DNA of 64,000 nucleotides from an uncultured Schlesneria sp. Lineage in GTDB: Bacteria > Planctomycetota > Planctomycetia > Planctomycetales > Planctomycetaceae. The number at the start of each line of letters is the position of its first letter. Within the stretch, counting starts at the first letter, position 1. The position numbers and the translations under genes are program-made. Under the pieces are notes generated by a model that saw nothing but the letters and a program-made list of their open reading frames with translations, did not search any database and was not told the origin of the DNA. Positions 6,406 to 26,833 of this stretch are shown here, in pieces. The stretch is from the NCBI GenBank assembly GCA_903904835.1, contig CAIVEI010000145.1, positions 1 through 64,000 on the forward strand, written 5' to 3'.

Positions 6406-6436
6406 TTCGTCGAAAACCACGGGCAGACATCGTCAG

Positions 6437-6470
6437 ACAGACGTTTCCAGTAAGACCTGGAAACGTCTGT
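6437..6470 (+). terminator. Hairpin downstream of the HTH gene
   Basis: A perfect 14-bp stem (6437-6450 with 6457-6470) closes a 6-nt loop TAAGAC, 32 bp after the stop codon. The run after it is mixed rather than T-rich, so it may be a weak intrinsic terminator or an mRNA 3'-end stabiliser. Confidence 0.6.
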
Positions 6471-6558
6471 TGCTGCGGTCTTGGTAGCTGATAGACTGAT
6501 CCTGTTACAGCGATAAAACCTGTGGTCTTTTTCCAAATGGTTCGCAGTAGGGACGTTC

Positions 6559-7911: not shown

Positions 7912-7925
7912 TGCACCAGGACGTA

Positions 7926-7998
7926 GTAGTGGCTTCCAGCCACTTTGAGAGATGGTCACTTTGAGAAATGATGCGCGGAGGCTCGAAGCCTCCACTAC
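7926..7998. repeat. REP-like element with nested hairpins
   Basis: GTAGTGG (7926-7932) pairs with CCACTAC (7992-7998). Inside lie a TGGCTTCCAGCCA hairpin and a 7-bp stem GGAGGCT/AGCCTCC (7977-7983 with 7987-7993). A near-duplicate TCACTTTGAGA/CCACTTTGAGA word lies in the middle. It fills the gap between the DUF1552 gene and the amidase gene. Position and symmetry suggest a dispersed extragenic palindrome. Confidence 0.6.
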
Positions 7999-8031
7999 CC
8001 GAAATTCGTCTTGCTTGTTGGTAATCGCCTG

Positions 8032-8946
8032 ATGCATCATCAATTCATTCCTACGTCGTATCATCGCAATCTTGGTCCCTATGAGCCTGTGTTGCGAATT
8101 CGAAGTGGTGATTCGATTTCGACAACGACTGTTGATGCTGCGGGTTGTGATCAGACCGGCGTGACAGTCACGCCGCGAGGGAATCCCCAGACGGGGCCGT
8201 TCTTCGTCGAAGAGGCCGAGCCAGGCGATATGCTGGTCGTCAAGATCGATCAGATTCGTCCCAACCGGCCGACTGGATGGGCAAGATCGGTCGTGGCTCC
8301 CATCGTTGTCGACCCTTCGTTTGTCAAGCAGTTGCCTGACGCGCCGCTTGCGGAATGGGCGATTAACGCCAATGAAGGGACGGCGACACTGATCGCTCCA
8401 TCTTGTCAATTAGGACACCTGACAATTCCTATCGAGCCTATGCTTGGATGTTTCGGAGTCGCCCCATTTCGCCAGCAGGCGATTTCGACCGCAACGTCGG
8501 GCGAGTATGGCGGCAATATGGATTATCGCGGGTTTGTCGCCGGAGCAACCGTTTACTTTCCTGTCTTCGAACCGGGGGCGCTGTTCTTTCTTGGGGATGG
8601 TCATGCCACTCAGGGAGACGGCGAAATCGCGGGGACCGGCATCGAAATTTCGATGGATGTCACAGTGACCTTGAGTGTTATCAAGGCGAAGTCCATCACG
8701 TGGCCGCGAGGGGAAAATGCGGATTTCATCTTCACCGTCGGCAACGCGCGCCCTTTGGATCAATGTCTGCAACACGCCACGACTGAAATGCTTCGGTGGC
8801 TCGAACAGGATTATGGTCTCGATTCACTGAGTGCGAGTCTGTTGCTCAGTCAGTGCGTACGTTACGACCTGGGGAACATGTTCGATCCCGCGTACACGAT
8901 GGTCTGCAAGCTGCCAAAACGGTTTCTAACTGCAAAACGACATTGA
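8032..8946 (+). CDS. Acetamidase/formamidase family protein
   Basis: FmdA/AmdA-family hydrolase, which releases ammonia from short-chain amides. The 304-residue product carries family blocks: GDSISTTTVDAAGCDQTG near 28-45, NPQTGPFFVEEAEPGDML near 54-71, MLGCFGVAP near 140-148 and FFLGDGHATQGDGEIAGTGIE near 185-205. The Asp/His/Glu residues of the last block match the metal site of the family. I place the start at ATG 8032 (MHHQF); a TTG at 8011 would add seven residues inside the repeat element. A signal peptide is absent, so it should be cytoplasmic. True substrate (formamide, acetamide or another amide) cannot be told from sequence. Confidence 0.9.
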   Translation: MHHQFIPTSYHRNLGPYEPVLRIRSGDSISTTTVDAAGCDQTGVTVTPRGNPQTGPFFVEEAEPGDMLVVKIDQIRPNRPTGWARSVVAPIVVDPSFVKQLPDAPLAEWAINANEGTATLIAPSCQLGHLTIPIEPMLGCFGVAPFRQQAISTATSGEYGGNMDYRGFVAGATVYFPVFEPGALFFLGDGHATQGDGEIAGTGIEISMDVTVTLSVIKAKSITWPRGENADFIFTVGNARPLDQCLQHATTEMLRWLEQDYGLDSLSASLLLSQCVRYDLGNMFDPAYTMVCKLPKRFLTAKRH

Positions 8947-9190
8947 TCGTTTGCGACTCCCTACATTGGGAGCAGGCGAAAAAGTTTCGCTTGTCGGTAC
9001 TTCTTACGAGATCGGTTCCTTAGCCGCGAAACTGAGATCGCGGGAGAGAACGGCGGATTACGCCTGTTACCACTGGCCCGGCAATGACGATCTTAAACGT
9101 AGATCGAAATCGCCCGGAGTTAGAGGAAGTCTGGGCGAATTATTCACTCTCTGGAGGCAACGGATTGCGCCTGACAAGGATTCTTGAACC

Positions 9191-9520
9191 ATGCAAGGTG
9201 TCAACCGTCTGTTTGCCACTCGAACGATTTCACTCGTTGCACTCTCTGCAGCGGTCCTGATTTCGGGTTGCGTGACGTCCGCAAAAGTCCGCAAATCGGC
9301 ATCATGTCCAAGCTGCCAGGGAGACCCGTATCCCACGTTGAAACCGACTCCTGCGCCCGCTTATGACGACTATCAATCGCCGAACAGGGGTGGAATTGCA
9401 CCTGAACCACTACCACCAAGTCCACCGGTTGAAACAACAAGACGGCTTCCCGGTTTGAATAACCGACCGGTTTCGCCGTATCAGTCCGCTGACCGAGATT
9501 CGAAAAACATGTTCGACTGA
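9191..9520 (+). CDS. Small lipoprotein, function unknown
   Basis: A 109-residue protein with an N-terminal hydrophobic signal ending in a lipobox (VLISGC, Cys27), so it should be lipid-anchored. The mature part has a CPSCQGDPYPTLKPTPAP motif and is rich in Pro, Ser and Thr, with no recognised domain. It looks like one of the short, extended cell-envelope lipoproteins common in planctomycetes. It is followed by a strong hairpin at 9602. Confidence 0.75.
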   Translation: MQGVNRLFATRTISLVALSAAVLISGCVTSAKVRKSASCPSCQGDPYPTLKPTPAPAYDDYQSPNRGGIAPEPLPPSPPVETTRRLPGLNNRPVSPYQSADRDSKNMFD

Positions 9521-9601
9521 TTGTAGCGAACTGAACCGCATTGAAAGCCGGGGCACTTCACAGCGATTGACAACATTTGCTTATTATCGATGCTCCGGCA
9601 C

Positions 9602-9629
9602 AGGCCGGGCGGTAAATGCCGCCCGGTCT
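9602..9629. terminator. Bidirectional terminator between converging genes
   Basis: The stem AGGCCGGGCGG (9602-9612) pairs with CCGCCCGGTCT (9619-9629) with one G-T wobble around a 6-nt loop. It is GC-rich and lies between the converging lipoprotein (plus) and zinc-ribbon (minus) genes. CTTTCGTT follows on the plus side. Confidence 0.7.
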
Positions 9630-9653
9630 GCTTTCGTTAGCAACATCCAGAGC

Positions 9654-9947
9654 CTAACGCTTGACGATTTGATATTCGCATTCAGGGCACACCGTTGAAC
9701 CGAATGGAATACGCTTCCCGCAGCTCGGGCAATTCGCAATCTTAGGATCTGCCGCGAGTTCTTTTTCGAATTTATCCTGCTCAATCGCCTCATTTGTTCT
9801 TGGCAGGAATAAGGCAACCAACAACCACAACCAGCCAAAAAACAATCCGAGGATAACTCCAAGTCTTGGAGAATATCCTTTTTTTGCAGCAATTTTTCCG
9901 CCCAGAAATCCGAAGGCAATCCAAATCAAAATATTCAGCGCGAGCAT
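9654..9947 (-). CDS. Small membrane protein with C-terminal zinc ribbon
   Basis: A 97-residue protein with two hydrophobic helices (about 3-18 and 30-48) and a C-terminal zinc ribbon: CPSC at 73-76 and CPEC at 88-91, with GKRIPFGSTV between. The start MLALNILIWIAFG fits a membrane-inserted N-terminus. Small two-helix proteins with a treble-clef ribbon are widespread and uncharacterised. I see no partner genes. Confidence 0.8.
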   Translation of the reverse strand: MLALNILIWIAFGFLGGKIAAKKGYSPRLGVILGLFFGWLWLLVALFLPRTNEAIEQDKFEKELAADPKIANCPSCGKRIPFGSTVCPECEYQIVKR

Positions 9948-10488
9948 GGTTTATGTTTCCGTAGTTTTTGGGGACAGTGTCACGCTGCGTCTGATTCAGG
10001 TCACTTTGAGCTTCGTTGATTCTGATCGCGGAAAATCGGAATTTCAAGGTTCATCGACGTCAAAACAACCTGCTTGATTTTTCCGTCGACGACATCGCTA
10101 ACGATATCAACACTGTTTCACGATTGCTGCCCCTTCTTCTATTGATGAATCAGAGGATCTGCCGTCATTAACGCATCACAGTCCCTTCGTCATTAACGGC
10201 AGTTCGGCAAAGCCAACAGTTTTGTCATCTGTTCCATACTCGCGAAGTTTGGTCGTGCTTGATAAGTTTCACATTCGCCAAGTCTTTCTCGTGCATTGTC
10301 AATATTTAACGTTCGGGTCGAGTGTCGCTGCATCGCAGTCTTCGGAGGCGCCGTGTCTGCTCTTTTTTCGAGGCAATCGAAGAGCACCAGGTGACCGAAG
10401 GCGGTCATCCAGTGGCACCCGAAAATTGAGATTCGACAACGCACCAGGTGTTAAAGTCGGCCATACTTCCACTTGCGAGTTACGATTC
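9948..10488. other. Divergent intergenic region
   Basis: The 541 bp separate the zinc-ribbon gene (minus) from a sulfatase (plus). The sulfatase frame stays open upstream to 10222, but the extra 89 codons have no signal peptide or domain. CGTCATTAACG occurs twice about 30 bp apart (10164-10195). No other gene is supportable. Confidence 0.4.
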
Positions 10489-11814
10489 ATGCTTACTCGA
10501 TCACACTATGTTTGCTGCTGTTTGACGCTGTTCGTCGTGGCACGATTGTCCGATCTTTCAGCGGCAGATCCAAAGCCTGCGCAGCCAAACATCGTATTCA
10601 TTCTCGCCGACGACTATGGGACTGGCGAAGTTGGTTGTTACGGTGCCGACAACTACAAGACGCCCCACATCGATGCTCTGGCCACTGGTGGCATGCGATT
10701 TACGCACGCCTACACCGCGCCTCTCTGCGGGCCTTCACGTGCATTGATACTGACGGGTCGCTACCCCTTTCGCACAGGAGCGACAAACCAGGACGCCACG
10801 GGCCGGATGTCGCCTGACCGCGAAACGATGATGCCCAAAATTCTGAAGCAGGCGGGATATGTCACGTCTTGCGTCGGCAAGTGGGGTCAGCTTCCACTGG
10901 GTCCCGCCGAATTCGGCTTCGATGATTATCTGAAGTTCAAAGGGAGCGGAGCGTATTGGAATACCCAACCTAAAGCCGAATCGTACGAGGTGAATGGGAA
11001 ATCGGTAAAGCTTCGCGACTATGAATATCTTCCCGACGTGATGCACGATCATGTGACCAGGTTTATCACTGCCAATCGAGAAAAACCGTTTTACCTTTAT
11101 TATTCTCTGTCACACGTGCACGCCGAAATTTTGCCCACGCCCGACAGTGTTCCCGGAAGCAAAGATCTTTACGCCGACAATGTTACCTACATGGATAAGC
11201 TTGTTGGTAAGCTGATTGGATTACTCGATCAATTGAAGTTGCGAGACAATACGCTGATTGTCTTCTTCGGAGATAATGGGTCTGCAACGGGTCGAGCGAA
11301 ACGGGCCACGATTGGTGGTCAGGCGCTGTCAGGATCAAAAGGTTCCATGCAAGAGGGAGGGTCTCTTGTTCCTTTAATCGTCAACTGGCCGGGCAAGACC
11401 CCTGCCGGGGTGGTCTCTCATGATCTGATTGATGCGACGGACTTCGTCCCCACGTTCGCCATGCTGGCGGGGGCACAACTCCCCGAGAAAACCGTCATTG
11501 ACGGCCAAAGTTTTCACTCGCAAATCAAAGGTGAGAAAGGGACGCCACGTGATTGGATGTTTAACCAACTCGCCGGCATGTGGTATGTACGCGAGGCGAA
11601 CTGGAAGCTGAATCAGGCGGGCGAGCTGTTTGATATGTCTGATGCCCCATTCACCGAAAAACCGGTCCCGCTCGAAACGAACGATCCTGCCGCCAAAGCG
11701 GCGCGCAGTCGGCTTCAGGCCGCGCTTGCAAAGCTCGACCCGGGTAGCGGAATTGTCGACGATGGTAACGGTACAGGCCGACACGCCAATCGCAAAAAGG
11801 ACAAGGTCAAGTAA
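10489..11814 (+). CDS. Secreted sulfatase
   Basis: Formylglycine-dependent sulfatase, 441 residues from ATG 10489, hydrolysing sulfate esters outside the cytoplasm. A signal peptide (about 1-26, ending DLSAA) precedes the catalytic domain. Metal ligands Asp41-Asp42 sit in FILADDYG, and the formylglycine motif is C80-G-P-S-R. A conserved FFGDNGS block near 260-266 carries further metal ligands. The frame is open upstream, but only this start gives a correctly placed signal sequence. The next gene is another sulfatase 60 bp downstream, suggesting a shared transcript. The substrate is probably a sulfated polysaccharide, but specificity cannot be read here. Confidence 0.93.
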   Translation: MLTRSHYVCCCLTLFVVARLSDLSAADPKPAQPNIVFILADDYGTGEVGCYGADNYKTPHIDALATGGMRFTHAYTAPLCGPSRALILTGRYPFRTGATNQDATGRMSPDRETMMPKILKQAGYVTSCVGKWGQLPLGPAEFGFDDYLKFKGSGAYWNTQPKAESYEVNGKSVKLRDYEYLPDVMHDHVTRFITANREKPFYLYYSLSHVHAEILPTPDSVPGSKDLYADNVTYMDKLVGKLIGLLDQLKLRDNTLIVFFGDNGSATGRAKRATIGGQALSGSKGSMQEGGSLVPLIVNWPGKTPAGVVSHDLIDATDFVPTFAMLAGAQLPEKTVIDGQSFHSQIKGEKGTPRDWMFNQLAGMWYVREANWKLNQAGELFDMSDAPFTEKPVPLETNDPAAKAARSRLQAALAKLDPGSGIVDDGNGTGRHANRKKDKVK

Positions 11815-11874
11815 GTCACTCGACCGTGATCACATTTACACAATCACATTCATTCTCCATTCGGGCCTGCGAAC

Positions 11875-13380
11875 ATGAATAAGTTTTATCTGATTGCAAT
11901 GTTTTTCATGGGATTGGCCGAGGTCGGCACGATTCAGGCTGCCGATGGCAAGTCTAAGCCGAACGTATTGTTTATCGCAGTCGATGACTTGCGTCCTGAA
12001 ATGGGCTGTTACGGCAACAAGGTTATCAAGACTCCGAATCTTGACCGGCTGGCTCAACGCGGGATCGTTTTCAACCGGGCCTATTGTCAACAGGCCGTTT
12101 GCAGCCCGTCTCGAAGTTCGCTGTTAACGGGGAAACGCCCTGACGCGACACAAGTTTGGGACCTGCAGACGCATTTCCGCGTGGCGCTCCCAAATACGAT
12201 CACACTGCCGCAGCACTTCAAAGCTAACGGTTATCATACGGCGGCCTTGAGTAAGATTTATCATCCTGGTTTTGAAGACGGCGCTTCGTGGAGTGAACCG
12301 CATTGGTATCCCAACGGCCGGACAGTTGACACTGATCCCTCCGATCCGACCAAACGAATCACTCAGTCATACGGCAAGGGTGTTAAAAAGAACGCCAATG
12401 CAAAAGCCAACGGGGATGAAGAACGATCCACGCAGAAGGGTGAAAAGCCTGCCAAAACCGTTCCCGCGTTTGAAGTCAGCACAAAAAGTGATGATGAACT
12501 ATCCGATGGCTTCACCTGCCAGGAAGCCGTTAAGCGACTTCATAATCTCAAGTCCGGTAGTGAACCGTTTTTTCTTGCGGTCGGTTTCTTGAAACCGCAC
12601 CTTCCGTTCGTTGCCCCCAAGAAATACTGGGATCTTTATGATCCAGCAACCATTCCAAAACCTGCGATCGATCATCTGCCTGAAGGAGCACCCACATACG
12701 CGGGTCACGTCAACGGCGAGATTCATGGGTATCTTGGCGTGCCAGAGGCTGACCCGATTCCTGCCGATTTTTCACAGACGCTGCGCCATGGATACTACGC
12801 CTGCATCAGCTACACCGACGCCCAGGTTGGCCGCTTGCTCGACGCACTGGATCAGGAAGGCCTCGCCCAGAACACGATTATCGTTCTCTGGGGCGACCAC
12901 GGCTGGCAACTTGGCGACCATGGCCTTTGGCACAAGCACACGAACTTCGAACTGGCCACACGGGCGCCCTTGTTAATCAGTGTCCCTGGTTTGAATACAG
13001 CCGGAAAGACCTGTAACGCACCCGTGGAATTCGTCGACGTCTATCCAACCCTTGCCGACGTCTGCGGCCTCGCGATTCCCGGCGACCTCCACGGCAGCAG
13101 CCTGAAGCCCTTGCTTGAAAATCCCGCTACGATCCCGACGAAAAAAGTCGCGATCAGCCAATATCCCCGACCTGCCGGACAAACCAAGCAGGGTGCCTTG
13201 ATGGGCTACAGTGTTCGTGACGACCGCTGGCGACTGACCGTCTGGCGAAACCGCAAGACCGGCGAAGTTGCAGCAACGGAACTTTACGACGAACAAGATG
13301 ATCCCTCCGAAACCATTAATCTCGCGACGAAATCCGAACACAAGCCGGTCATCGACCGCCTCTCGGCCTATTTGCCGTAA
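11875..13380 (+). CDS. Iduronate-2-sulfatase-like sulfatase
   Basis: Second sulfatase of the pair, 501 residues with a signal peptide (about 1-23). It has FIAVDDLRPEMGCYG with metal Asp37-Asp38 and the modification site C76-S-P-S-R. VWDLQTHFR and the LWGDHGWQLGDHGLWHKHTNFE block (about 340-361) are typical of iduronate-2-sulfatase-like enzymes. A lysine/alanine-rich insert (about 165-205) separates the two halves of the domain. It lies 60 bp after the previous sulfatase. Planctomycetes use large sets of such enzymes on sulfated polysaccharides; the real substrate is unknown. Confidence 0.92.
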   Translation: MNKFYLIAMFFMGLAEVGTIQAADGKSKPNVLFIAVDDLRPEMGCYGNKVIKTPNLDRLAQRGIVFNRAYCQQAVCSPSRSSLLTGKRPDATQVWDLQTHFRVALPNTITLPQHFKANGYHTAALSKIYHPGFEDGASWSEPHWYPNGRTVDTDPSDPTKRITQSYGKGVKKNANAKANGDEERSTQKGEKPAKTVPAFEVSTKSDDELSDGFTCQEAVKRLHNLKSGSEPFFLAVGFLKPHLPFVAPKKYWDLYDPATIPKPAIDHLPEGAPTYAGHVNGEIHGYLGVPEADPIPADFSQTLRHGYYACISYTDAQVGRLLDALDQEGLAQNTIIVLWGDHGWQLGDHGLWHKHTNFELATRAPLLISVPGLNTAGKTCNAPVEFVDVYPTLADVCGLAIPGDLHGSSLKPLLENPATIPTKKVAISQYPRPAGQTKQGALMGYSVRDDRWRLTVWRNRKTGEVAATELYDEQDDPSETINLATKSEHKPVIDRLSAYLP

Positions 13381-16060: not shown

Positions 16061-16083
16061 TTGAATCGCGATGTCACCGGGCA

Positions 16084-16155
16084 TTTTACCAAGCCATGGT
16101 GTTTTACCAAGCCATGGTATTTTACCAAGCCATGGTATTTTACCAAGCCATGGTA
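16084..16155. repeat. Four tandem copies of an 18-bp unit
   Basis: The unit TTTTACCAAGCCATGGTA is repeated four times without spacers (16084-16101, 16102-16119, 16120-16137, 16138-16155); only the first ends in G. Each copy contains ACCAAGCCATGGT with a CCATGG palindrome. The length is a multiple of three, so both strands read as hexapeptide repeats (FTKPWY on plus, PWLGKI on minus) inside short frames of 63 and 86 codons. Either a small repeat-bearing peptide or a non-coding minisatellite is possible; I favour non-coding. Confidence 0.85.
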
Positions 16156-16482: not shown

Positions 16483-18360
16483 ATGAATTCCGAAACGAGT
16501 GCTCAATCATCGAATAGCGATTTGTCGGGAGAAAGTCTCAATCCCGCAAACGCAGGTTCGTCGACTGGAGTTTCAATCGATACAAAAACAATTGTCGGTA
16601 CCGAAGCGATTACTTCCAGTGACATGGAGGTGTCCGTGAGTCCGATTGGTGGAACGATTGGCAAATATGAAATCCGGTCCCAGTTGGGTGCCGGAGGGAT
16701 GGGGGCAGTCTACCTCGCTTTCGATACGCTGATCGAGCGTGAAGTCGCGATCAAAGTCTTATCTCAGGAAGTCGCCAATTCAACCGTGGCATTGCAACGC
16801 TTTCTTCAGGAAGCGAGGTCAATCGGTAGACTGAACAATCCTAATGTCGTCTCGATTTACGAGATCGATCGTTGGAACGGGCAATATTACCTCGTCATGG
16901 AATTACTTTCCGGCGGAAGTCTGGCGGAACTGGTGGATAAACGAGGGCCATTGCCTTGGCAAGAAGCCTGCCAGTTGATTGCTCAGGCCGCTTCGGGGCT
17001 GGCGGCGGCGCATTCTGCAGGTATGGTGCATCGCGACATCAAGCCCGAAAACCTGATGTTGACGAAGGAAGGGCTGGTAAAAGTCGTCGATTTCGGGTTA
17101 TCCAAGCTTGTCGACGCAGCTAACGACACACGGACGGCCGTGACCAAACAAGGACAAATCCTTGGTACGCCGCAATACATGAGTCCCGAGCAGTTTGAAT
17201 CGACGGAAGTTGACTCCAGGACGGATATTTACAGCCTGGGAGCGTCGCTTTATCGGCTGTTGACGGCCAGATTTCCTTTTCACGACTGTGCTTCAATCGT
17301 GCAGACGATGATGGCACATTTAAACAAGCCTTCGCCAAAGGCAACCGATATTGATTCACGGATTCCTGATGAATGTGATCGCATCATTTCTCGCGCAATG
17401 TCCAAGCGACCTGCTGAACGTTATCAACAAGCATCGGAAATGGCTGCCGATTTAACGGCTTTGATTCAAAATCAGAACATGGTCGTACGTGATGCCCGGG
17501 AACCGGAAGCAACCCTGAACGTATTAGTCGCAGACACCCCGAATTTTGCCTCGCTGACGATTGCCGATGAAGTGAAGCCGTTGAGGTCCGTTGCGATCAT
17601 CGAGCCATCCAAGATGCTGGCTACGATGATGCGTGATGCCGTTGTGCGAGTGGGAGCGTCACGGATCGATGTGCTATCCTCCAAGGAAGAAGCTTTGACG
17701 GTCATCGGTCGACGAGTTCCCGATTTATTGATTACGGCAATGCAGCTTTCCGATGGTCGTGGTATCGACTTGATCTCGGAACTATGCCAGGAGTCGTCAC
17801 TGAGCCGTACTTGTGTGGTGCTGAATTCGAGCGATTCCACGGTGGAAGACCTGATCGGCGCCGGATCGGCGGCGAGTCAGATTCTTGCACCTAAGAAAGT
17901 GCGTCCTGACGACGTCCTTCGGGTCGTCCATGCTGCCGGCCCCTGTGAAATCGCCCAAGGTTTCATCGCCAATTCACTTGATCCGTTGAATTTACGGCTT
18001 GTGATCATGACGAATTTCGATAAGACGCCGGACCAACTTGCCGATCTGATCCGACAAGTTGGTCTCCTGGACGTTTCTGTAATTGGGCTTTCCGACGCGG
18101 CCTTGATCCCGACCGACGATGTTCCAACAGTCGTGCTAAGACTGAAACAGATACCATTGAAAGGTTCGACCGTCGAGATACAGGACGTAAAAACATCGAT
18201 ACTTCTCCATGCGGGTCGACATTTGTTTGCAGACGTTGCAGTCGATTCGAAGGCGATGTATTTGTCCACAGTGTTCCGTCAGAGTGTTACGGCCTCCGTT
18301 CATCGAATTTTCGATGCAAAACGGCTGACATGCCTGTTACAGGCGTGCCGAGCGTCATAA
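16483..18360 (+). CDS. Ser/Thr protein kinase fused to a pseudo-receiver domain
   Basis: Hanks-type kinase of 625 residues, starting at ATG 16483 behind GGAAG; a TTG at 16444 is less likely. Kinase domain about 62-330: glycine loop GAGGMGAVY, Lys91, HRDIKPEN with Asp185, DFG 203-205, and GTPQYMSPEQ. Residues about 368-485 have a response-regulator receiver fold (SVAIIEPSKML, PDLLITAMQLSDGRGIDL, ILAPKKV), but the phosphoacceptor position is Ala419 and the acidic pocket is reduced to one Glu. A further unrecognised 130-residue segment ends the protein. There is no transmembrane helix, unlike most planctomycete kinases. It is first in the chemotaxis operon, 125 bp before cheW, suggesting it feeds a signal into or out of the Che pathway. 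Confidence 0.92.
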   Translation: MNSETSAQSSNSDLSGESLNPANAGSSTGVSIDTKTIVGTEAITSSDMEVSVSPIGGTIGKYEIRSQLGAGGMGAVYLAFDTLIEREVAIKVLSQEVANSTVALQRFLQEARSIGRLNNPNVVSIYEIDRWNGQYYLVMELLSGGSLAELVDKRGPLPWQEACQLIAQAASGLAAAHSAGMVHRDIKPENLMLTKEGLVKVVDFGLSKLVDAANDTRTAVTKQGQILGTPQYMSPEQFESTEVDSRTDIYSLGASLYRLLTARFPFHDCASIVQTMMAHLNKPSPKATDIDSRIPDECDRIISRAMSKRPAERYQQASEMAADLTALIQNQNMVVRDAREPEATLNVLVADTPNFASLTIADEVKPLRSVAIIEPSKMLATMMRDAVVRVGASRIDVLSSKEEALTVIGRRVPDLLITAMQLSDGRGIDLISELCQESSLSRTCVVLNSSDSTVEDLIGAGSAASQILAPKKVRPDDVLRVVHAAGPCEIAQGFIANSLDPLNLRLVIMTNFDKTPDQLADLIRQVGLLDVSVIGLSDAALIPTDDVPTVVLRLKQIPLKGSTVEIQDVKTSILLHAGRHLFADVAVDSKAMYLSTVFRQSVTASVHRIFDAKRLTCLLQACRAS

Positions 18361-18485: not shown

Positions 18486-19031
18486 GTGAGCGGAAATATT
18501 TCGACGAGATCCGCCATGTCTGAGTCGATGGCTCAGGCTCGATCTTCGATGCAATTCGTTGGTTTTCGACTGGCCGATCAGATGTATGCCTTTCGAATCG
18601 AAGGGATTCAGGAAATTGTGATCCCGGATCGGGTCACGCAAATGCCTCAGGTCCCTGACTATGTCGAAGGGGTCAGCAATCTGCGTGGAACGATCATTCC
18701 GATCATTAATTTGCGACGTCTATTCGATCTCGAATCAAAACCAAAAGATGACGAGACTCGAACGATCGTCGTGAACGTCGGACCTCGAACGATTGGCTGT
18801 ACGGTCGATGCCGTTACACAGGTGATCAAAATTGCCCCCGAATCAATTCATTCAGCTCCCGACATCGTGAAGGCAGATGGAGCCGCCTACATCGCCGGTT
18901 TCGCTAAGTTAGAAAGCGGCCTGGTGATCCTTCTCGATATTGGCGAGTTATTGGATCCGGCAAAATTAGATCAAGTGCGCGAAGTGGCTCGTCATGGTGT
19001 TGCCGTAAACCCCACGACATCCTCCTCCTGA
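18486..19031 (+). CDS. cheW: CheW chemotaxis coupling protein
   Basis: Scaffold that couples receptors to the CheA kinase. The 181 residues contain the CheW fold: FVGFRLADQMYAFRIEGIQEIV near 20-41, MPQVPDYVEGVSNLRGTIIPIINLRRLF near 49-76, and a C-terminal LVILLDIGELL. The start is GTG 18486, with AGGGG a few bases before; ATG 18516 is an alternative that removes ten residues. The frame is open further upstream, but that part is not CheW-like. It lies between the kinase and the receptor gene. Confidence 0.93.
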   Translation: MSGNISTRSAMSESMAQARSSMQFVGFRLADQMYAFRIEGIQEIVIPDRVTQMPQVPDYVEGVSNLRGTIIPIINLRRLFDLESKPKDDETRTIVVNVGPRTIGCTVDAVTQVIKIAPESIHSAPDIVKADGAAYIAGFAKLESGLVILLDIGELLDPAKLDQVREVARHGVAVNPTTSSS

Positions 19032-19120: not shown

Positions 19121-20887
19121 ATGGCAATTGACAAACCAATCACCAATTCAAATTCCCCCCGACCAAGGCGAACTCGGCGAACAACTGATGCCGCAGATAT
19201 TTCCGCGACGGTTGATTTTCGTCAAATCGTGGAAAACGCGTCGATTCGTGTGATCGTTGCAGATCGGGACTTGACCGTTCTCTACATGAATGCCGCGTCA
19301 AAAGCGACTCTGCTGGAATTAGAACATCTGCTGCCTTGCCCCGTGGACGAAATCGTTGGGCAATCGATCGACATCTTCCACAAGAACCCCGATTTCCAGC
19401 GTCGATTTCTGGCAAACCCCAAGAATCTCCCTCATTCGGCAGAGATTCGTCTGGGTCCCGAGATCATGGATTTGCACGTCACCGCCGTTCGCGATGCAGA
19501 CGGCAACTATGTTGGTCCAATGATCACCTGGAACTTAATCACGGAGAAAAAAGCTCTTGAAGCCCAAACGGCTGACATGATCGCTCAAATGGAAGCGCTC
19601 GGTCGAACGAACCTGGTGATTCAATTCAATGTTGATGGAACGATCATCACTGCCAACGAGAATTTCCTCTCGGCAATGGGCTATACATTGGAAGAGATCA
19701 AAGGGCGGCATCACAGTATCTTTGTCGATGAACAGTATCGTTCGAGCCCTGAATACAGAGAATTCTGGACGAAGCTCAATCGCGGAGAGTACGCCAAAGA
19801 CGAGTTTCCGCGAGTCACAAAAAGTGGACGGGTCGTCTGGATACAGGCGGCCTACAACCCGATCCGCGACTCAAGCGGCAAAGTTACGAAGGTTGTCAAA
19901 TTCGCTACGGATATTACCGCTGCGGTCCACGCCCGCAATGAAAATCTTCGAGTTCAGGCGGAACAACTGGCTGCCGCCAACGAATTACGAGCCAAAGTTG
20001 CGAGGCTGGTACAGGTCGTGACAGCGATTGCAAACGGCGATCTGACCCAAAATGTCGAACAGGGTGGTGATGACGACCTGGGCCAGTTAGCGGCCAGCGT
20101 GAAGCGAATGTCGACCGATTTGCGAGAACTCATCAGCCAGATGATTGAATCGGCGACTCAACAAACTGAAGGGGCACGGGCGATAGCCGAGAGCTCACAG
20201 AATCTCAGTGAAGGGGCTCAATCGCAGGCCGCTTCGGTCGAGGAAATGTCTGCCAGCATCGAAGATCTCGTCAGATCAATTCAGGTCATTTCTGAGAGTT
20301 CGGGTGAGGCAAGGCATCAAGCCGAATCGACTGCCGAGTTAGCGAAATCGGGCGGAAATTCGGTAAGTGAAGCCATTTCTTCGATGCGGCTGATTCAGAA
20401 GTCGAGCGAACAGATCAACGACATCATTCAGGTGATCAGCGAAATCGCCAGTCAGACAAATCTGTTAGCACTCAATGCGGCCATTGAAGCGGCACGCGCA
20501 GGGGAACACGGATTGGGCTTTGCCGTTGTCGCTGATGAAGTTCGAAAACTTGCTGAGCGGTCGAGCCTCGCGGCAAAAGAGATTACTCAGTTGATCAAGG
20601 AATCAACTCGACGCGTCGCGGAAGGTGCAGAACTTTCGGAAAAGGTCGGCAAATCGCTCGGTTCGATTGTCCAGGCGGTGGAACAAACGGCATCTGGAAT
20701 CGCCAGGATTGCCGATTCGACCGAGACACAAGCGGAAAGTGCCAAAGAGGTCCAGCTAGCGATTCGCTCGGTTGGAAAGACAACCGAGTCAAACGCAGCG
20801 GCGTCGGAAGAAATGGCGGCCAGTGCAGAGGAACTGGGTGCTCAAGCCACGACATTGCAGGAACTTGTCGCACGCTTCAAAGTTTAA
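19121..20887 (+). CDS. Soluble methyl-accepting chemotaxis protein with two PAS domains
   Basis: Chemoreceptor of 588 residues lacking any transmembrane helix, so it should sense a cytoplasmic cue. Two PAS domains lie at about 28-140 and 155-270 (the second ends in the PAC-type [10 protein letters not shown]), followed by a HAMP-like segment (about 285-340) and a signalling domain to the end. The hairpin tip [20 protein letters not shown] binds CheW/CheA. Flanking Gln/Glu pairs are candidate methylation sites for CheR and CheB encoded nearby. No CheR-tethering pentapeptide ends the protein ([10 protein letters not shown]). The ligand or cofactor of the PAS domains is unknown. Confidence 0.94.
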
Positions 20888-20914: not shown

Positions 20915-21751
20915 ATGGTCGCTGTGGATACGTCTCAACTGACACTCAAGGAATTTCAGCAGTTTCAATCCTTTATTTTGAAGCTGTGCGGCATCAGTGT
21001 GCCTGATAACAAAATTACGTTGCTGAGCAATCGAATTCGACGTCGATTGCGAGCGACAAACATCGCGGATTTCGAGGGCTATTTCAAGTTTTTAAAGTCT
21101 CCGGCAGGGAAAGAAGAACTGGAAGGTTTTTTGAGTGCGATTACGACGAATGAAACCTCATTCTTTCGGACAGAAAAACACTTTGACTGGTTGAGAACGG
21201 AATTCGTCGATCAGGTCGTCAATCAGGCAAAGGCGGGTGAACGTCAGCGTTCCCTGCGAATCTGGTCGGCTGCCTGCAGTACGGGGGAAGAACCTTACAC
21301 GATCGCTCTTTGTCTGGCGGAAAATCAGCACAAGCTGGCGGGATGGAAGATTTCGGTCCTGGGTACGGATATCAGCGAACATGCAATTTCCAAAGCTCGG
21401 AGCGGCATTTTCGGTGATGACATCTGCAGTGAGGTCCCTGACAAACTAAGATCACGATTTTTCCTTGAACATGCAGAATCCAAAACATGGGAAGTCAAAC
21501 CGGTACTAAAAGAGATGGTGACGATCAAGCGTCACAACTTAATGGAACGTCATCCTGAGTCAGGTTTTGATTGTATTTTCATTCGAAATGTTTTGATCTA
21601 TTTCAGCAAAGAGTCGAAGCAGCAGGTCATCGAGAATCTTGTTCATGCGATGGCGAAAGGGTCCTATCTCGTCGTCGGTCCGTCTGAGGGGATCTTCGAA
21701 ATGTTGGGGATGCTGACGAAGCGATCCACCTTCCTGTATCAGAAGGAATAA
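20915..21751 (+). CDS. cheR: CheR protein-glutamate methyltransferase
   Basis: SAM-dependent enzyme that methylates receptor glutamates to adapt signalling. The 278 residues match CheR in length. An N-terminal helical part (about 10-70) is followed by NETSFFRTEKHF, the SAM loop IWSAACSTGEEPYTIA (about 111-126), LGTDISEHAISKAR and FDCIFIRNVLIYF (about 215-227). The stop codon is one base before the cheA start, and the SD for cheA lies inside the last codons, so the two are translationally linked. Confidence 0.95.
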   Translation: MVAVDTSQLTLKEFQQFQSFILKLCGISVPDNKITLLSNRIRRRLRATNIADFEGYFKFLKSPAGKEELEGFLSAITTNETSFFRTEKHFDWLRTEFVDQVVNQAKAGERQRSLRIWSAACSTGEEPYTIALCLAENQHKLAGWKISVLGTDISEHAISKARSGIFGDDICSEVPDKLRSRFFLEHAESKTWEVKPVLKEMVTIKRHNLMERHPESGFDCIFIRNVLIYFSKESKQQVIENLVHAMAKGSYLVVGPSEGIFEMLGMLTKRSTFLYQKE

Positions 21752-21752
21752 G

Positions 21753-24179
21753 ATGGGATCAGACACAAACAATCCGAACGAATCAGGGGCGTCCTCGTCT
21801 GACGATTTGTCCGAATACATGCAGGTATTCCTGGATGAATCGGCCGAAGAGCTGGATTCACTGGTCGAGGCAATCCTGCTGCTGGAAGACGATCCTCAAA
21901 ATGCGGAGTCTCTTAACAAAGCGTTCCGGATGCTGCATTCATTGAAAGGTTCCTGCGGGATGATGGGCTTCGAGGTCGTGGGAGATTTTGCTCACACACT
22001 CGAAGATCGATTTGAAAACTATCGATCAGGGAAAGACCTGCTTGATCGTGACACTGCGACCTTGGTGCTCAAGTGTGTGGATTATTTTCGAGCGTTTATC
22101 GATCGCCTGCGGAAAGGAAACGCGAGCGAAGGTGATCCTTCTGAACTGAAGCAACAATTGGAGTCACGATCGGAAAAAACGCTGTTCATTCCCGAGAGTC
22201 TGTTAAGAAGTCCTGTCGTTGAATCGCCGCCAACTCCTTCGATCCCCGTAACGGCTTCAAAGCCAGTCGCGGTCCCGACGCTTTCCGGCGGAATTTTGAT
22301 CAAAATCAAATTCAAACCGGGATTGCAACTCGCAGATCTGAAAGCACGGTTAATCGTTTCACGACTGTCGTCGATTGGCGAAGTTGTTGAGTGTGAACCA
22401 AAGATTGAAGACGTTCGCAGTTTTGATGATTTGCCGTTGTTCTCACTGACATTGCTGACTGACCGCAAGTTAGACGAGATCCGGAAGTTCGCGAACGTCG
22501 ACGGCGTCGAATCCGTTGATTTTGGCGGGCCCAATGTCTCTGGTGAAGCCTCAACGGCAGCACGTGAAGTGCTGGTCGCACCGGTCAAGCACGAGACCAC
22601 CCCTGAAACGGTTCCGGTAAAACCAGAAACAAAAGAGACAAGCCTCGCGTCGGTAACTCTTGAAGAAACATCGGCGATTCCATCGCCCCCTGCCGCGATT
22701 TCGAAGCCAGCCGCAAAGACGACGGCTCAAGCCGTACCCGAGACAACCGAAGTGAAAGCTCCGGTCAATGAAACATTGCGGATCGATATTGAGCGTCTCG
22801 ATCGGCTGATGAATCTGACCGGTGAACTGGTCGTCACTAATGCCAGGTTTGCCCAGATCACTTCCGACATGAGCCCGATTTTTCGGCGGAATTCTGTTTT
22901 TAACAAGTCCAAAGACGTCACCGACCGATTACGTCAGCGATTGGAACTTGTTCGCCAGCACATGAATTCGTCGAAATTTGCCGAAGAGAGTTGGAATTCC
23001 ATTTTCCACGGCTTAGAAGACGAGCTGGAAGGCCTGGACCAGCAAACGGCCATGTTTAACGAAGGGCACCGTCACTTCCTTCAGATTACGGAAGCCGTCG
23101 ATCAACTGACACGCGTCTCAAAGAATCTGCAACGGGGGGTTTTGAACACCCGGATGGTTCCCGTCGGTCCTTTGTTAAACCGATTCAAGCGAGTCATCCG
23201 AGACCTTTCCGTCGAGCGAAGTAAACGCGTTCAGCTTCTGGTGCACGGCGAAAATACAGAGCTTGATCGTCGGATGATTGATTCACTAGGTGACCCGTTA
23301 TTGCATCTTGTCAGGAACTCGATCGATCACGGTCTCGAATCGCCCGAGCAGCGTGTTGCCTGCGGAAAGCCAGAAGTCGGCACGATTTCGATTGAAGCGT
23401 CACATCGAGGTAATAACGTTTTGATTACTGTACGAGATGACGGAGGAGGGATCAGTTCTGAGAAAATTCGGGCACGAGTCGTGTCGCGAGGGATCGCTAC
23501 TGAATCTCAGGTTCGCGAAATGAGCGAGCAGCAGATCGTCGATTATATCTGGCACCCAGGCTTCAGCACTGCAGAACAGGTGACCGACATCTCTGGTCGC
23601 GGCGTTGGAATGGATATCGTTCGCAGCACGATCACGAGCCTCAGCGGGACGATCGATGTCGCTTCAATTCCAGGCCAGGGAACGACTTTTACGATTCGAC
23701 TTCCATTAACCCTTGCCATCATTCGTAGTCTGCTAATCCGCAACCGAAGTGGTTATTTTTCGATTCCGATTGACGACGTGCGGGAAATCGTATCGATCTC
23801 GCCCGACGAGATTCATGCCGTTCATCGTCACCTGACCATTGACGTTCGCGGTGAATTAATTTCGCTGGTGACGATGGAAAATATCTTCGATTGGAACGTT
23901 TCTGCCGAATCCCAGTCAACGGACGGCAATTCGTCGAATCGAAACATCAACGTGGTGCTACTGTATTCTCGGGGCAGAACGCTCGGATTATGCGTCGATT
24001 CACTCGTCGGCCGAGCTGATATCGTGATAAAATCACTCTCCGAGAATTTCGTTGCGATTCGCGGTCTTTCGGGGGCCAGCATCATGGGTGATGGCACCGT
24101 CTGTTTGATGCTCGATTGTGCGTCCCTGATCGAATTGGCATCGGAACGAGCCGTGGCACACGGCGCAGGCAGGCGATAA
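21753..24179 (+). CDS. cheA: CheA chemotaxis histidine kinase
   Basis: Central kinase of 808 residues. Order: HPt domain with phospho-His62 (FRMLHSLKGSCGMMGF); a P2-like alpha/beta segment (about 178-268); a Pro/Ala/Glu-rich linker (about 270-340); dimerisation helices (DRLMNLTGELVVTNARFAQI); HATPase with N-box LVRNSIDHGLESPEQR and glycine boxes DDGGG and GRGVGMD; and a C-terminal CheW-like domain. After activation it phosphorylates CheY and CheB, both in this operon. All catalytic boxes are intact. It overlaps the regulatory unit of cheR and precedes the cheC-like gene by 26 bp. Confidence 0.96.
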   Translation: MGSDTNNPNESGASSSDDLSEYMQVFLDESAEELDSLVEAILLLEDDPQNAESLNKAFRMLHSLKGSCGMMGFEVVGDFAHTLEDRFENYRSGKDLLDRDTATLVLKCVDYFRAFIDRLRKGNASEGDPSELKQQLESRSEKTLFIPESLLRSPVVESPPTPSIPVTASKPVAVPTLSGGILIKIKFKPGLQLADLKARLIVSRLSSIGEVVECEPKIEDVRSFDDLPLFSLTLLTDRKLDEIRKFANVDGVESVDFGGPNVSGEASTAAREVLVAPVKHETTPETVPVKPETKETSLASVTLEETSAIPSPPAAISKPAAKTTAQAVPETTEVKAPVNETLRIDIERLDRLMNLTGELVVTNARFAQITSDMSPIFRRNSVFNKSKDVTDRLRQRLELVRQHMNSSKFAEESWNSIFHGLEDELEGLDQQTAMFNEGHRHFLQITEAVDQLTRVSKNLQRGVLNTRMVPVGPLLNRFKRVIRDLSVERSKRVQLLVHGENTELDRRMIDSLGDPLLHLVRNSIDHGLESPEQRVACGKPEVGTISIEASHRGNNVLITVRDDGGGISSEKIRARVVSRGIATESQVREMSEQQIVDYIWHPGFSTAEQVTDISGRGVGMDIVRSTITSLSGTIDVASIPGQGTTFTIRLPLTLAIIRSLLIRNRSGYFSIPIDDVREIVSISPDEIHAVHRHLTIDVRGELISLVTMENIFDWNVSAESQSTDGNSSNRNINVVLLYSRGRTLGLCVDSLVGRADIVIKSLSENFVAIRGLSGASIMGDGTVCLMLDCASLIELASERAVAHGAGRR

Positions 24180-24205: not shown

Positions 24206-24862
24206 TTGAACCACGCTCCGCGATTGACGTCGGATCAACTTGAACGACTGACTCAGGCTTTCCATTCTGGTGCCGCGATGGGTTCTCAGGCTATCCAGGG
24301 GTGGCTGATGGCGCCAGCCGTGATTTCCATTGATTCCGCAGACGAGTGCCCACTCGATATGGCGACCGCTGTTCTCGGCGAGTCTGGCGATGTGGTCGGC
24401 ATGTGTGTAATGCAGATGGAAGGGACGCTGACTGGTCAAATGGTACTTGCATTTGACGATCGAAGCGGTCTCTCGCTGACGGATCTTCTGCTCGGAAATC
24501 CGCCCGGAACAGCGACGGAATGGGGGGAAGTTGAGATCTCTTCAGCTTTGGAATCGATGAATATACTCGGCAGTTCGTATTTGAACGGAATGGCGAGTTT
24601 TCTGTCGAAGGGGAGTCGAGAAACGGTCAGTCTGATTCCGTCGCCACCGGTCTTTTATCGCGATTTTGCGGAGAGTCTGCTGCAGAGTGCGTTTATGGAG
24701 CAGGCTGCCGAGGGAAGTCATGTGTTGTTCGCCCGTGCTCGATTTGAACTACATGGGCGTCCGCTCAACTGGACTTTTCTGCTGATACCCGACCCCGGAT
24801 CGCTGCTGAAGCTTTCGCAAATCCTTTCGAGCCTCGGTTCAAATTGTGAGACCAGCACATGA
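24206..24862 (+). CDS. CheC-like phosphatase
   Basis: The 218-residue product resembles CheC/CheX/FliY phosphatases, which remove phosphate from CheY. One E-x2-N active-site motif is visible: SSALESMNILGSSYLNGM, with Glu and Asn about residues 115-118. The second half (RDFAESLLQSAFMEQA) lacks the equivalent motif, so only one site appears active. The start is TTG 24206 with AAGGGGA upstream; no nearby ATG fits. The stop overlaps the cheD start as ATGA. CheC normally partners CheD, which supports the call. CheC rather than CheX is an inference. Confidence 0.8.
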   Translation: MNHAPRLTSDQLERLTQAFHSGAAMGSQAIQGWLMAPAVISIDSADECPLDMATAVLGESGDVVGMCVMQMEGTLTGQMVLAFDDRSGLSLTDLLLGNPPGTATEWGEVEISSALESMNILGSSYLNGMASFLSKGSRETVSLIPSPPVFYRDFAESLLQSAFMEQAAEGSHVLFARARFELHGRPLNWTFLLIPDPGSLLKLSQILSSLGSNCETST

Positions 24863-25374
24863 ATCAACTCGATCGGAGCGGGCTATTGCTCGCGGGAGAA
24901 CAACGTCGACTTACCGAACGAAAAGTTGGCATGGGGGATATCGAAGTGACCCGAGGGGCGTTCTTGTTGAGGACCTTGCTCGGTTCCTGCATTGGGTTAG
25001 TCATTTACGATTTGCGGAACCAGGTGGGTGGAATGGCGCATATCGTTCTGCCAAATTCCAATGGCCAGGTCGGTACGCCGGGCAAATATGCCGATACGGC
25101 GTTGGCAGAATTGTTGAAACAGATCATTGAACTAGGTGGTCGCGAACGACAGTTGTCGGCTAAGTTAACCGGGGGTGCCAACATGTTTGCGACATCGGGA
25201 CCAATGACGATTGGCGATCAAAACCTCGCTGCGATTGAACTTTTGCTGAAATCGGCTGGCATTCCCGTGATCGGCCGTCATTGCGGAGGACGGTCTGGCC
25301 GTCGCGTGGCGTTTGAAGTCGACACCGGACGTGTCACTGTCGATGTTGTCGGTTCGTCTACCGTTGAAGTTTAA
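24859..25374 (+). CDS. cheD: CheD chemoreceptor glutamine deamidase
   Basis: Deamidates receptor glutamines to glutamate and is regulated by binding CheC. The 171 residues show LGSCIGLVIYD with catalytic Cys44, GGMAHIVLP with His61, and KLTGGANMF, all diagnostic. Start ATG 24859 overlaps the stop of the cheC-like gene by four bases, giving coupled translation and roughly equal amounts of the two partners. It is slightly longer than typical CheD because of a 25-residue N-terminal lead. Confidence 0.95.
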   Translation: MNQLDRSGLLLAGEQRRLTERKVGMGDIEVTRGAFLLRTLLGSCIGLVIYDLRNQVGGMAHIVLPNSNGQVGTPGKYADTALAELLKQIIELGGRERQLSAKLTGGANMFATSGPMTIGDQNLAAIELLLKSAGIPVIGRHCGGRSGRRVAFEVDTGRVTVDVVGSSTVEV

Positions 25375-25396: not shown

Positions 25397-25762
25397 ATGA
25401 ACCGTCTTTTGATTGTTGATGACGCTTTGATCATGCGGATGAAGATTCGGGATATTGCCCGATCTGCAGGGTGGCAGGTGGTCGCGGAAGCGACCAACGG
25501 CGAAGAAGCGGTCCAATTGTTCGAAGAACACCGACCAGACCTCGTGACACTTGACATGGTCATGCCCGGGATGGATGGTCTGTCTGCGCTGAAGGCAATC
25601 CGTAAACTACATCCCGCTGCCAACATCGTCATGGTGAGCGCCGTCAATCAGAAAGAGAAACTCCGCGAGTGTATTGAAAGTGGTGCGCTGGATTTTGTCG
25701 TCAAACCATTCGATCCAGCCAATCTCAAAGCCTTTTTTGAACAGTATCGGCAAAGCACCTGA
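25397..25762 (+). CDS. cheY: CheY-type response regulator
   Basis: Single receiver domain, 121 residues, starting at ATG 25397 after AGAAGG. Acidic pocket Asp8-Asp9, phosphoacceptor Asp53 (LVTLDMVMPGMDG) and Lys103 (FVVKPF) are all present, so it should be phosphorylated by the CheA of this operon. It has no output domain; its target (a flagellar switch or something else) is not encoded here. The frame is open upstream to 25313, but that would overlap cheD and add a non-family lead. Confidence 0.94.
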   Translation: MNRLLIVDDALIMRMKIRDIARSAGWQVVAEATNGEEAVQLFEEHRPDLVTLDMVMPGMDGLSALKAIRKLHPAANIVMVSAVNQKEKLRECIESGALDFVVKPFDPANLKAFFEQYRQST

Positions 25763-25765
25763 TCT

Positions 25766-26833
25766 ATGACCGTCCTCAAAGTTTTAATTGTCGATGATTC
25801 GGCACTGTTTCGAACATTGTTATCCAACATCCTTCGCGGCATACCAAACTGTGAAGTAATTGGGACGGCATCGACTGGCCAAACCGCACTACAGAAAATT
25901 ATCGAGCTTGAGCCTGATCTGGTGACGCTCGACATGGAAATGCCTGAGATGGATGGCATGGAAGTGCTGCAAGAACTGAAACGCCGACGCATCCGTTCCA
26001 AAGTCATCATCGTCAGCCGACACACGTCGGCGGGTGCTCAAATCACGACGGACGCACTTTTACAGGGGGCGTTCGATTTTGTTCTCAAACCGTCAAGCAA
26101 GGATCCGGCAGCCAATAGATCGGAATTGGAGCACGCTCTTTCGGAAAAAATTACGGCCATTCGGGAAAATACGGGACACGATGCTGGAACTACGGTTTCG
26201 CCAGCCCCGACCCAAGCTAAGCCTGAGTCGAATCGTCGACGAACAACAAGATGTGAAGCAGTGGTGATTGGGTGTTCGACCGGTGGTCCTGATGCATTAG
26301 GACAGGTTGTGCCCTACCTTGACCCGGATTTTCCGGTGCCGATCGTTATCGTTCAGCATATGCCGGAAGGATTTACAGGTTCCCTGGCCAAACGCTTGAA
26401 CGAGGCCAGCGAGCTCAATGTTGTCGAAGCATCCGACGGACTTGCTTTGAAAAAGGGGATGGCTGTTGTTGCGCGCGGGGGACGACATCTCAGGCTGGAA
26501 CGCCGGAGTGTCAATCAGGTCGTCGTACAACTGACGGAAGATCCCCATGAGCACAACTGTCGTCCCGCAGTTGATTACACTCTTCGTACCGCAGTCGAAG
26601 CGTATGACGGGCATCTTTTGACGGTTATTCTAACGGGAATGGGACGCGACGGAACTGAAGGGTGCCGTCTGGTGCGTGATAAGGGTGGCGAAGTGGTTGT
26701 GCAGGATGCGGAAGGATGTGTCGTATTTGGCATGCCAAAGTCGGTGATCAACGCCGGCCAGGCAGATTCCATTGTGCCACTGCCTCAAATCGCCGCCACG
26801 ATCAATTCGATTGTTGGTAAGTCAAAACGATGA
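25766..26833 (+). CDS. cheB: CheB protein-glutamate methylesterase
   Basis: Removes receptor methyl groups when phosphorylated by CheA. The 355 residues comprise a receiver (Asp56, Lys108), a basic/Pro linker (about 135-162) and the methylesterase with Ser171 (GCSTGGP), His198 (VQHMP) and Asp295 (GMGRDG). It starts three bases after the cheY stop codon, so the two are coupled. This is the last recognisable chemotaxis gene; the next gene, 107 bp on, encodes an unrelated membrane protein. Confidence 0.96.
   Translation: MTVLKVLIVDDSALFRTLLSNILRGIPNCEVIGTASTGQTALQKIIELEPDLVTLDMEMPEMDGMEVLQELKRRRIRSKVIIVSRHTSAGAQITTDALLQGAFDFVLKPSSKDPAANRSELEHALSEKITAIRENTGHDAGTTVSPAPTQAKPESNRRRTTRCEAVVIGCSTGGPDALGQVVPYLDPDFPVPIVIVQHMPEGFTGSLAKRLNEASELNVVEASDGLALKKGMAVVARGGRHLRLERRSVNQVVVQLTEDPHEHNCRPAVDYTLRTAVEAYDGHLLTVILTGMGRDGTEGCRLVRDKGGEVVVQDAEGCVVFGMPKSVINAGQADSIVPLPQIAATINSIVGKSKR

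Follow-up and report, generated by a model that had tools for sequence, protein, structure and literature searches.

A Hanks-type kinase fused to a pseudoreceiver at the head of a CheC/CheD-type chemosensory cluster in Planctomycetaceae

Related Systems

Receiver domains have been found joined to, or working beside, enzymes of protein phosphorylation in several organisms. The closest described systems are compared here with a protein encoded in a 64,000-nucleotide stretch of DNA (the window) from an uncultured Schlesneria sp. of the Planctomycetaceae.

Rim15 is a fungal protein kinase with a C-terminal receiver, as in the window protein, and the acceptor position of Saccharomyces cerevisiae Rim15 is Ala (PMC8510515). 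PleD of Caulobacter crescentus (receiver - pseudoreceiver - diguanylate cyclase) has an enzyme output under a pseudoreceiver and a live receiver, which work together to dimerise the output (PMC12632262); the sister branch described below is built in a similar way. FrzS, a motility protein of Myxococcus xanthus, contains an Asp-less pseudoreceiver in which the output face is needed but phosphorylation is not (PMC1974792), and its acceptor site is Ala (PMC4395418). In PA3346 of Pseudomonas aeruginosa (receiver - Ser/Thr phosphatase), an enzyme of Ser/Thr phosphorylation is the output of a response regulator (PMC12189002). Finally, the Cc-5 chemosensory cluster of Corallococcus coralloides includes an ABC1 kinase-like gene, so that a member of the protein kinase superfamily lies within a che cluster, as in the window. 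That kinase is of the ABC1 type, the excerpt mentions no receiver in it, and the gene is missing from similar clusters of other lineages, planctomycetes included (PMC6194562).

The window protein differs from these in several ways. Rim15 has a single receiver; PleD has a different output and domain order from the Hanks kinase proteins treated here, and its live receiver lacks a counterpart in the window protein; PA3346 is a phosphatase, and its receiver is live. To our knowledge, Rim15 has no link to CheA, FrzS has no kinase domain, and PA3346 does not come from a CheA cluster. The genes downstream of the window kinase are those of the CheC/CheD/CheY pathway of the Bacillus and Thermotoga type, in which we know of no Ser/Thr kinase.

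Asp-less receivers make up about 4% of receivers, and pseudoreceivers about 6-13% (PMC12632262). In Asp-less receivers the acceptor is replaced by Ser in 15% and by Ala in 9% (PMC4395418). Among the top matches of a literature search that had subscription papers and bioRxiv outside its scope, no paper was recognised that describes a kinase fused to a receiver within a che cluster, nor is such a fusion mentioned in the excerpts of PMC10782961, PMC1183210, PMC4807772 and PMC12189002. Already known are a kinase with a C-terminal pseudoreceiver (Rim15) and, in Corallococcus, a che cluster that includes an ABC1 kinase-like gene; a kinase-receiver fusion heading che genes is apparently new.

The Kinase-Pseudoreceiver Gene

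The gene and its parts are as follows.

16483 to 18360, forward strand: Hanks-type Ser/Thr kinase - pseudoreceiver - probable degenerate second receiver, 625 residues from the ATG (open reading frame, Pfam, orthologue alignment)
16666 to 17427, forward strand: kinase domain, residues 62-315, with Lys91, Asp185, Asn190 and Asp203 (Pfam PF00069 Pkinase, E 1.5e-51)
17590 to 17919, forward strand: first receiver (REC1), a pseudoreceiver, residues 370-479, with Glu374, Pro375, Ala419, Asn448 and Lys471 (Pfam PF00072 Response_reg)
17737 to 17739, forward strand: codon of Ala419, the phospho-acceptor position (alignment)
17938 to 18357, forward strand: tail, residues 486-625, probable degenerate second receiver (hhalign to the second receiver, REC2, of the sister branch)

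By its domain and catalytic residues the protein is a Hanks-type Ser/Thr kinase, with predicted activity. An initial annotation had stated that every catalytic residue is present. This is borne out by the Pkinase match and by the conservation of Lys91, Asp185, Asn190 and Asp203 (of the DFG motif) in all nine orthologues that cover them, the other two of the 11 being cut by contig ends.

Upstream of the gene, at a distance of about 330 bp, lie 4.1 tandem copies of an 18-bp unit (16083-16155). A 29-base pattern of this repeat (2 mismatches) has no other match in the host genome, and the exact unit is absent from all other loci compared. Farther upstream (2497-13380) are a planctomycete cytochrome c/DUF1592 protein with a DUF1552 neighbour, and then sulfatases at 10222-11814 and 11875-13380.

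The Receiver Regions

REC1 is recognised as a receiver by Pfam (E 1.3e-7; 32.2 bits at a cut-off of 30.2). Judged by its residues, it is a pseudoreceiver, or Asp-less receiver (ALR), since the acceptor Asp is missing. The initial annotation had placed Ala419 where the phosphorylatable Asp should be, and three kinds of evidence agree with this placement. In the orthologue alignment, taking Ala419 as the acceptor position puts the signature Gly at D+8 (Gly427) in 11/11 proteins. In a sequence alignment, Ala419 falls on the acceptor-site Ala of PDB 4l85, an entry titled as a KdpE D52A mutant. Lastly, Ala419 is the last residue of beta3 in one AF2 model and the next residue after beta3 in another. 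These models are of modest confidence (mean pLDDT 65.7 and 68.4), with beta1 to alpha4 modelled but not beta5. Their top structural matches in the PDB are receivers; Foldseek matches to PleD are weak, with poor superposition (rmsd 10.9-13.7 Å). Asp424 was considered as a shifted acceptor and rejected, because Gly427 would not then fall at D+8.

Across the 11 orthologues, window included, the acceptor position is Ala in six and Ser in five, and no conserved Asp is aligned there. The first acid of the pocket is Glu (Glu374) and the second acid position Pro (Pro375) in every one. The Thr position, Asn448 in the window, is Asn in ten and Ser in one; Lys471 is invariant, and the residue three places before it (K-3) is always Leu. 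Of the canonical DD, D, T, K site, REC1 therefore keeps only Glu374 and Lys471. The earlier description of the acidic pocket as nearly gone is fair, although these two residues, the first acid and the Lys, are still there.

The tail is probably a degenerate second domain derived from a receiver. Compared by hhalign, with values calculated without database background, it is closest to the live REC2 of the sister branch (probability 82.8, E 9.4e-6), followed by the sister REC1 (E 0.0013) and the window REC1 (E 0.0016). Pfam gives no match at E up to 1 for 17881-18357, and a low-confidence AF2 model of the tail ends in a three-stranded sheet unlike a receiver. Resting on one profile comparison and this model, the case for a receiver origin is weakened. 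The initial annotation described the kinase and the pseudoreceiver correctly and overlooked this second, probably receiver-derived domain.

The Chemosensory Cluster

The kinase gene is followed by eight genes.

18516 to 19031, forward strand: cheW, likely start at ATG 18516 (PF01584, E 7.6e-38)
19121 to 20887, forward strand: chemoreceptor, PAS-PAS-HAMP-MCP (Pfam)
20915 to 21751, forward strand: cheR (Pfam)
21753 to 24179, forward strand: cheA, with Hpt, P2, dimerisation, HATPase and CheW domains (Pfam)
24206 to 24862, forward strand: cheC-like gene, CheY-P phosphatase family (NCBIfam CheC_Thtogales, E 1.6e-12)
24859 to 25374, forward strand: cheD (Pfam)
25397 to 25762, forward strand: cheY, a canonical receiver, start taken at MNRLLIVDD inside the open reading frame at 25313 (Pfam)
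25766 to 26833, forward strand: cheB (Pfam)

All eight genes of the earlier description, cheW and seven more on the strand of the kinase, can thus be identified. With CheW, MCP, CheR, CheA, CheC, CheD, CheY and CheB together, the cluster is by gene content a CheC/CheD-type chemosensory set, in which the CheC assignment lies below the NCBIfam family cut-off (47.8 bits against 250). Pfam misses the CheC-like protein (24206-24862) even at E 1. Its Ser112, Glu116, Asn119 and Pro145 are invariant in 8/8 alignment rows, and it has the pattern Ser-x3-Glu-x2-Asn, which we take to be the CheC motif. Hydropathy gives no transmembrane segment for the chemoreceptor, the highest mean over 19 residues being 1.0. 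The host genome has one FlhA-family match.

Between the stop of the kinase gene and the likely ATG of cheW there are 155 nt, the widest gap in the gene set. The distance from the kinase stop to the first in-frame Met of the cheW reading frame is 90 to 269 nt in the other eight clusters. An earlier in-frame ATG at 18330 would make cheW overlap the kinase gene by 31 nt, but no matching open frame occurs in the close relatives L052-L054. Scans for promoters (5 sites against a mean of 7.5 in shuffles) and terminators (13 against 13.3) gave no excess and are uninformative. Co-transcription of the kinase gene with cheW is plausible.

Orthologues and Constraint

Relatives were sought with residues 345-625 as the query. 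Among 392 genomes of the phylum there were three long matches, host included, and seven short ones. Among 170 genomes of the family 46 matched; 11 of these matches are long, again with the host, and the remaining 35 genomes have only short, weak matches (E 2.1e-7 or worse).

The initial annotation suggested looking for the same fusion beside cheW in other planctomycetes. In nine of the 11 orthologues, window included, the kinase is followed on its own strand by the che gene set described above, and the gene order agrees as far as cheB or the contig end, so adjacency to che genes is conserved and chance can be rejected as its cause. Some of these nine are cut at contig ends: L052, L054 and L057 lack the start of the kinase gene, and in L053 cheB is incomplete. 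As for the other two, L019 shows no che gene in a stretch of 17 kb, 8.3 kb of it downstream of the kinase, and the L058 contig stops inside the kinase-receiver gene.

Close pairs of orthologues give dN/dS values of 0.03-0.04 for the kinase domain (0.13 in one 57-codon piece), 0.02-0.06 for REC1, 0.09-0.19 for the tail and 0.17-0.33 for the linker, at dS mostly of 0.6-1.5; the more distant L055 is saturated. REC1 is as strongly constrained as the kinase domain, and private decay is rejected by these values.

A Sister System

The host genome contains exactly two CheA matches (PF02895), each headed by a kinase-pseudoreceiver fusion. The second is preceded by a protein of 626 residues with the order kinase - receiver - receiver (L004/L021). 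Among 30 loci examined of the 62 kinase matches listed for the host genome, only the two kinases adjacent to CheA carry a receiver.

Sister proteins were collected as they were met in the examined loci, which gave 18 proteins from 18 genomes and 10 genera and is not a census. Their REC1 has Ser (15), Thr (2) or Ala (1) at the acceptor position. It keeps the first acid as Glu, and the Lys, in 18/18; the second acid is Glu in 6/18 and otherwise Gln, Pro or Asn, and the Thr/Ser position is kept in 14/18. REC2 has the complete DD-D-T-K in 18/18, by sequence a canonical response-regulator site. Its K-3 residue is Ile in 18/18, where typical receivers have an aromatic residue (PMC12632262). All 18 proteins therefore pair one live receiver with one pseudoreceiver, a pairing that the window protein does not have.

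The earlier description treated the missing Asp as a loss in the window protein. This did not hold. Asp is missing from 29/29 first receivers of the two systems, so its absence looks like an old, maintained trait.

CheA adjoins 16 of the 18 sister-type fusions. The L062 kinase has a CheA P1 fragment at the contig end, and for L061 the 5.2 kb downstream contain no che gene. The genome of L061 (G515) carries a sister-type CheA elsewhere, on a different contig (L182), and L061 is its sole such kinase, so that kinase and CheA look separated there; this may be an exception or an assembly fault. In L063 the sister kinase sits after cheR and not at the cluster head. In L020 an upstream CheA-like match proved spurious, the true CheA being downstream of the kinase.

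The two branches differ in their receiver genes. No stand-alone receiver gene occurs in 12 of the 13 sister clusters visible from the kinase to cheR; the thirteenth, L064, has one (its cheR is cut, and it is counted here). A stand-alone receiver gene is present in 9/9 window-type clusters. The CheA proteins differ as well: the sister CheA (L021, 11247-13625) has no Pfam P2 match and two CheW-domain stretches, whereas the window CheA has P2 and one CheW domain.

At E 1e-40, a profile of the sister branch matched only the host genome among the 392 phylum genomes, a weak negative with six candidates scored per genome. A search of the genus with all candidates scored gave 6/15 at E 1e-30.

How Common Is the Layout?

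A search with PF02895 found CheA in 87 of 134 family genomes, with about 146 matches. The neighbourhoods of 94 family CheA genes were examined. Fourteen of them were reached through the kinase first; the others were selected on score, with near-copies from one genus and the weakest matches set aside. In 23/94, a kinase-receiver fusion is encoded on the strand of cheA at a distance of at most 8 kb, and in 3/94 there is a kinase without receiver. No kinase is seen at 37/94 with at least 6 kb on both sides, nor at 31/94 with a contig end within 6 kb. L054 is outside the count of 23, its kinase part being cut off. Once the 14 kinase-reached loci are removed, the fusion is beside CheA in 10/80.

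Outside the family the fusion was found beside CheA in none of 40 loci, chosen among the matches listed for spread of families and length of contig. Of these, 30 have 6 kb on both sides, eight have contig ends and two have a receiver-less kinase. The view that the layout is not a standard one is upheld by this sample.

Kinase-receiver fusions are otherwise rare. They account for 4 of 91 kinase reading frames in 80 loci, and all four are orthologues of the window protein; two more orthologue fragments in those loci, L072 and L075, end ahead of the receiver. Reading frames with a kinase and one receiver number 12 in the examined loci, ten of them orthologues. The others fit neither branch and are outside the 11 and the 18: a 636-residue protein whose acceptor position is Gly, in a 19-kb stretch free of che genes (L067, from G481, 7811-9718), and one of 548 residues on the strand opposite to a che cluster (L202, 14531-16174). 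L070 (G511), a weak match with no kinase, was dropped.

Evolution of the Two Branches

The first receivers of the two branches are alike by hhalign (E 1.6e-27, without database background). The corresponding values are E 5.6e-24 for sister REC1 against sister REC2 and E 6.2e-15 for window REC1 against sister REC2. Shared descent of the receivers is not firm, because the sister REC1 resembles the REC2 of its own protein almost as closely.

In a tree of kinase domains, the nine kinases of the window type are recovered as a single clade (100/100). All 18 sister kinases fall with five other host kinases on a branch (100/97) that excludes the window branch, and 17 of the 18 group together at 97/77, L069 being the one outside. 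With two kinase lineages and similar first receivers, either domain replacement or parallel assembly is called for, and the likeness of the two branches may be partly convergent.

A CheA tree was built by a quick method, with SH-aLRT support only. The nine window-type CheAs form one clade (98), with L218, L227 and L215 as nearest relatives. L218 and L227, which belong to related CheC/CheD clusters, have no kinase in the 5 kb in view ahead of cheW, so that type of pathway does not need the kinase; the L215 contig ends 546 nt upstream of cheA. Past cheB, the related CheC/CheD clusters L214, L215, L218 and L227 have a long receiver protein (473-670 residues).

Fourteen of 16 sister-type CheAs fall within one clade of 17 (98), with L064 and L069 elsewhere. 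The other three members of the clade are cut by contig ends 156-648 nt upstream. For L163 the gap is explained by a sister kinase near the end of another contig of its genome, and for L171 by its genome being that of L062; the third is L182.

Possible Functions

From the observed architecture, conservation, residues and gene order, we infer every step of binding, phosphotransfer and target choice that follows. The reading preferred here, held at about even confidence, is that the window gene encodes a dedicated Ser/Thr kinase of the chemosensory pathway. It would belong to a two-branch set of kinase-REC1-REC2 proteins in che clusters of the Planctomycetaceae, in which the window tail docks the kinase and the sister branch relays a signal from CheA.

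CheA relay. In the sister branch, where the cluster has no cheY, the live receiver encoded beside CheA is most plausibly the partner of CheA, with the Hanks kinase as its output. The receptor array would drive phosphorylation of CheA, which would pass the phosphoryl group to REC2. Phosphorylated REC2 would then, in the manner of PleD, repack against the pseudoreceiver. Dimerisation is what activates Hanks kinases, and the repacking would bring it about and lead to Ser/Thr phosphorylation of targets. The kinase was earlier proposed to enter the Che pathway. The direction of that proposal appears incomplete, as the live REC2 and the lack of cheY in 12/13 sister clusters suggest that signals can also run from CheA to the kinase.

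Docking. In the window branch, REC1 would not be phosphorylatable and REC2 has probably decayed, and the cluster keeps its own CheY, CheC and CheD. With no phosphorylatable receiver, a separate CheY and a conserved tail, a constitutive dock is the likeliest role, as in FrzS. The tail would most likely tether the active kinase to one part of the Che machinery (the P2 domain of CheA, CheY or the array), independently of phosphorylation, and the docked kinase would trim Che signalling by Ser/Thr phosphorylation.

Taken over both branches, the chance being judged neither better nor worse than even, a Hanks kinase would be a dedicated output of CheA. Kinase - pseudoreceiver - live receiver would replace CheY and form a His-Asp to Ser/Thr relay from the array, and the window protein would stem from a second recruitment, independent of phosphorylation, that brought a different kinase lineage into a CheC/CheD pathway.

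Action elsewhere. The kinase might share only regulation or history with the che genes and act elsewhere, its pseudoreceiver binding a partner outside the Che system. The 155-nt gap ahead of cheW, the lack of che neighbours in L019 and L061, and the related clusters L218 and L227 without a kinase are in keeping with this. It is nevertheless rather unlikely, given that CheA adjoins 9/11 window-type and 16/18 sister-type fusions, that two different kinase lineages do so, and that the fusion is otherwise rare (4/91, all orthologues of the window protein).

Parallel output. Phosphorylated CheY, or CheA, might bind the window pseudoreceiver and switch the kinase without an Asp, which would make the kinase an output parallel to CheY. 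Heterodimers of pseudoreceivers and receivers are a discussed mode of action (PMC12632262), and the sister branch has a live REC2 in the place of CheY. Against this, Asn at the Thr position in 10/11 and Leu at K-3 in 11/11 mean that Y-T coupling is gone, and this mode seems a minority prospect, on a par with action elsewhere.

Intramolecular acceptor. An Asp switch could have become a Ser/Thr switch if the fused kinase phosphorylates Ser or Thr at the acceptor position. These residues occupy it in 22/29 first receivers, compared with Ser in 15% of Asp-less receivers (PMC4395418), but the counted sequences are related and not independent. Ala in 7/29, the window included, means that such a switch is not general, and the site sits in the pocket; the proposal is very improbable.

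Decay. Slightly less probable still is a decaying, non-functional domain: REC1 lacks the Asp, the second acid and the Thr, and the tail changes faster, but dN/dS stays low in REC1 and tail (0.02-0.06 and 0.09-0.19, beside 0.03-0.04 in the kinase, or 0.13 in its 57-codon piece), and Glu374, Lys471 and Gly427 are invariant in 11/11.

Significance

How pseudoreceivers are switched has been called a mystery (PMC12632262). The two branches provide a natural pair, one without a live receiver and with a separate CheY, the other with a live REC2 and no CheY, and this makes them a testable case for pseudoreceiver switching. If the preferred reading, a dedicated chemosensory kinase, is true, the best understood bacterial sensory machine would be connected with Ser/Thr phosphorylation of the eukaryotic type, and this in a phylum with many such kinases. 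The gene arrangements suggest that the chemosensory machinery of some planctomycetes talks to, or through, Ser/Thr phosphorylation.
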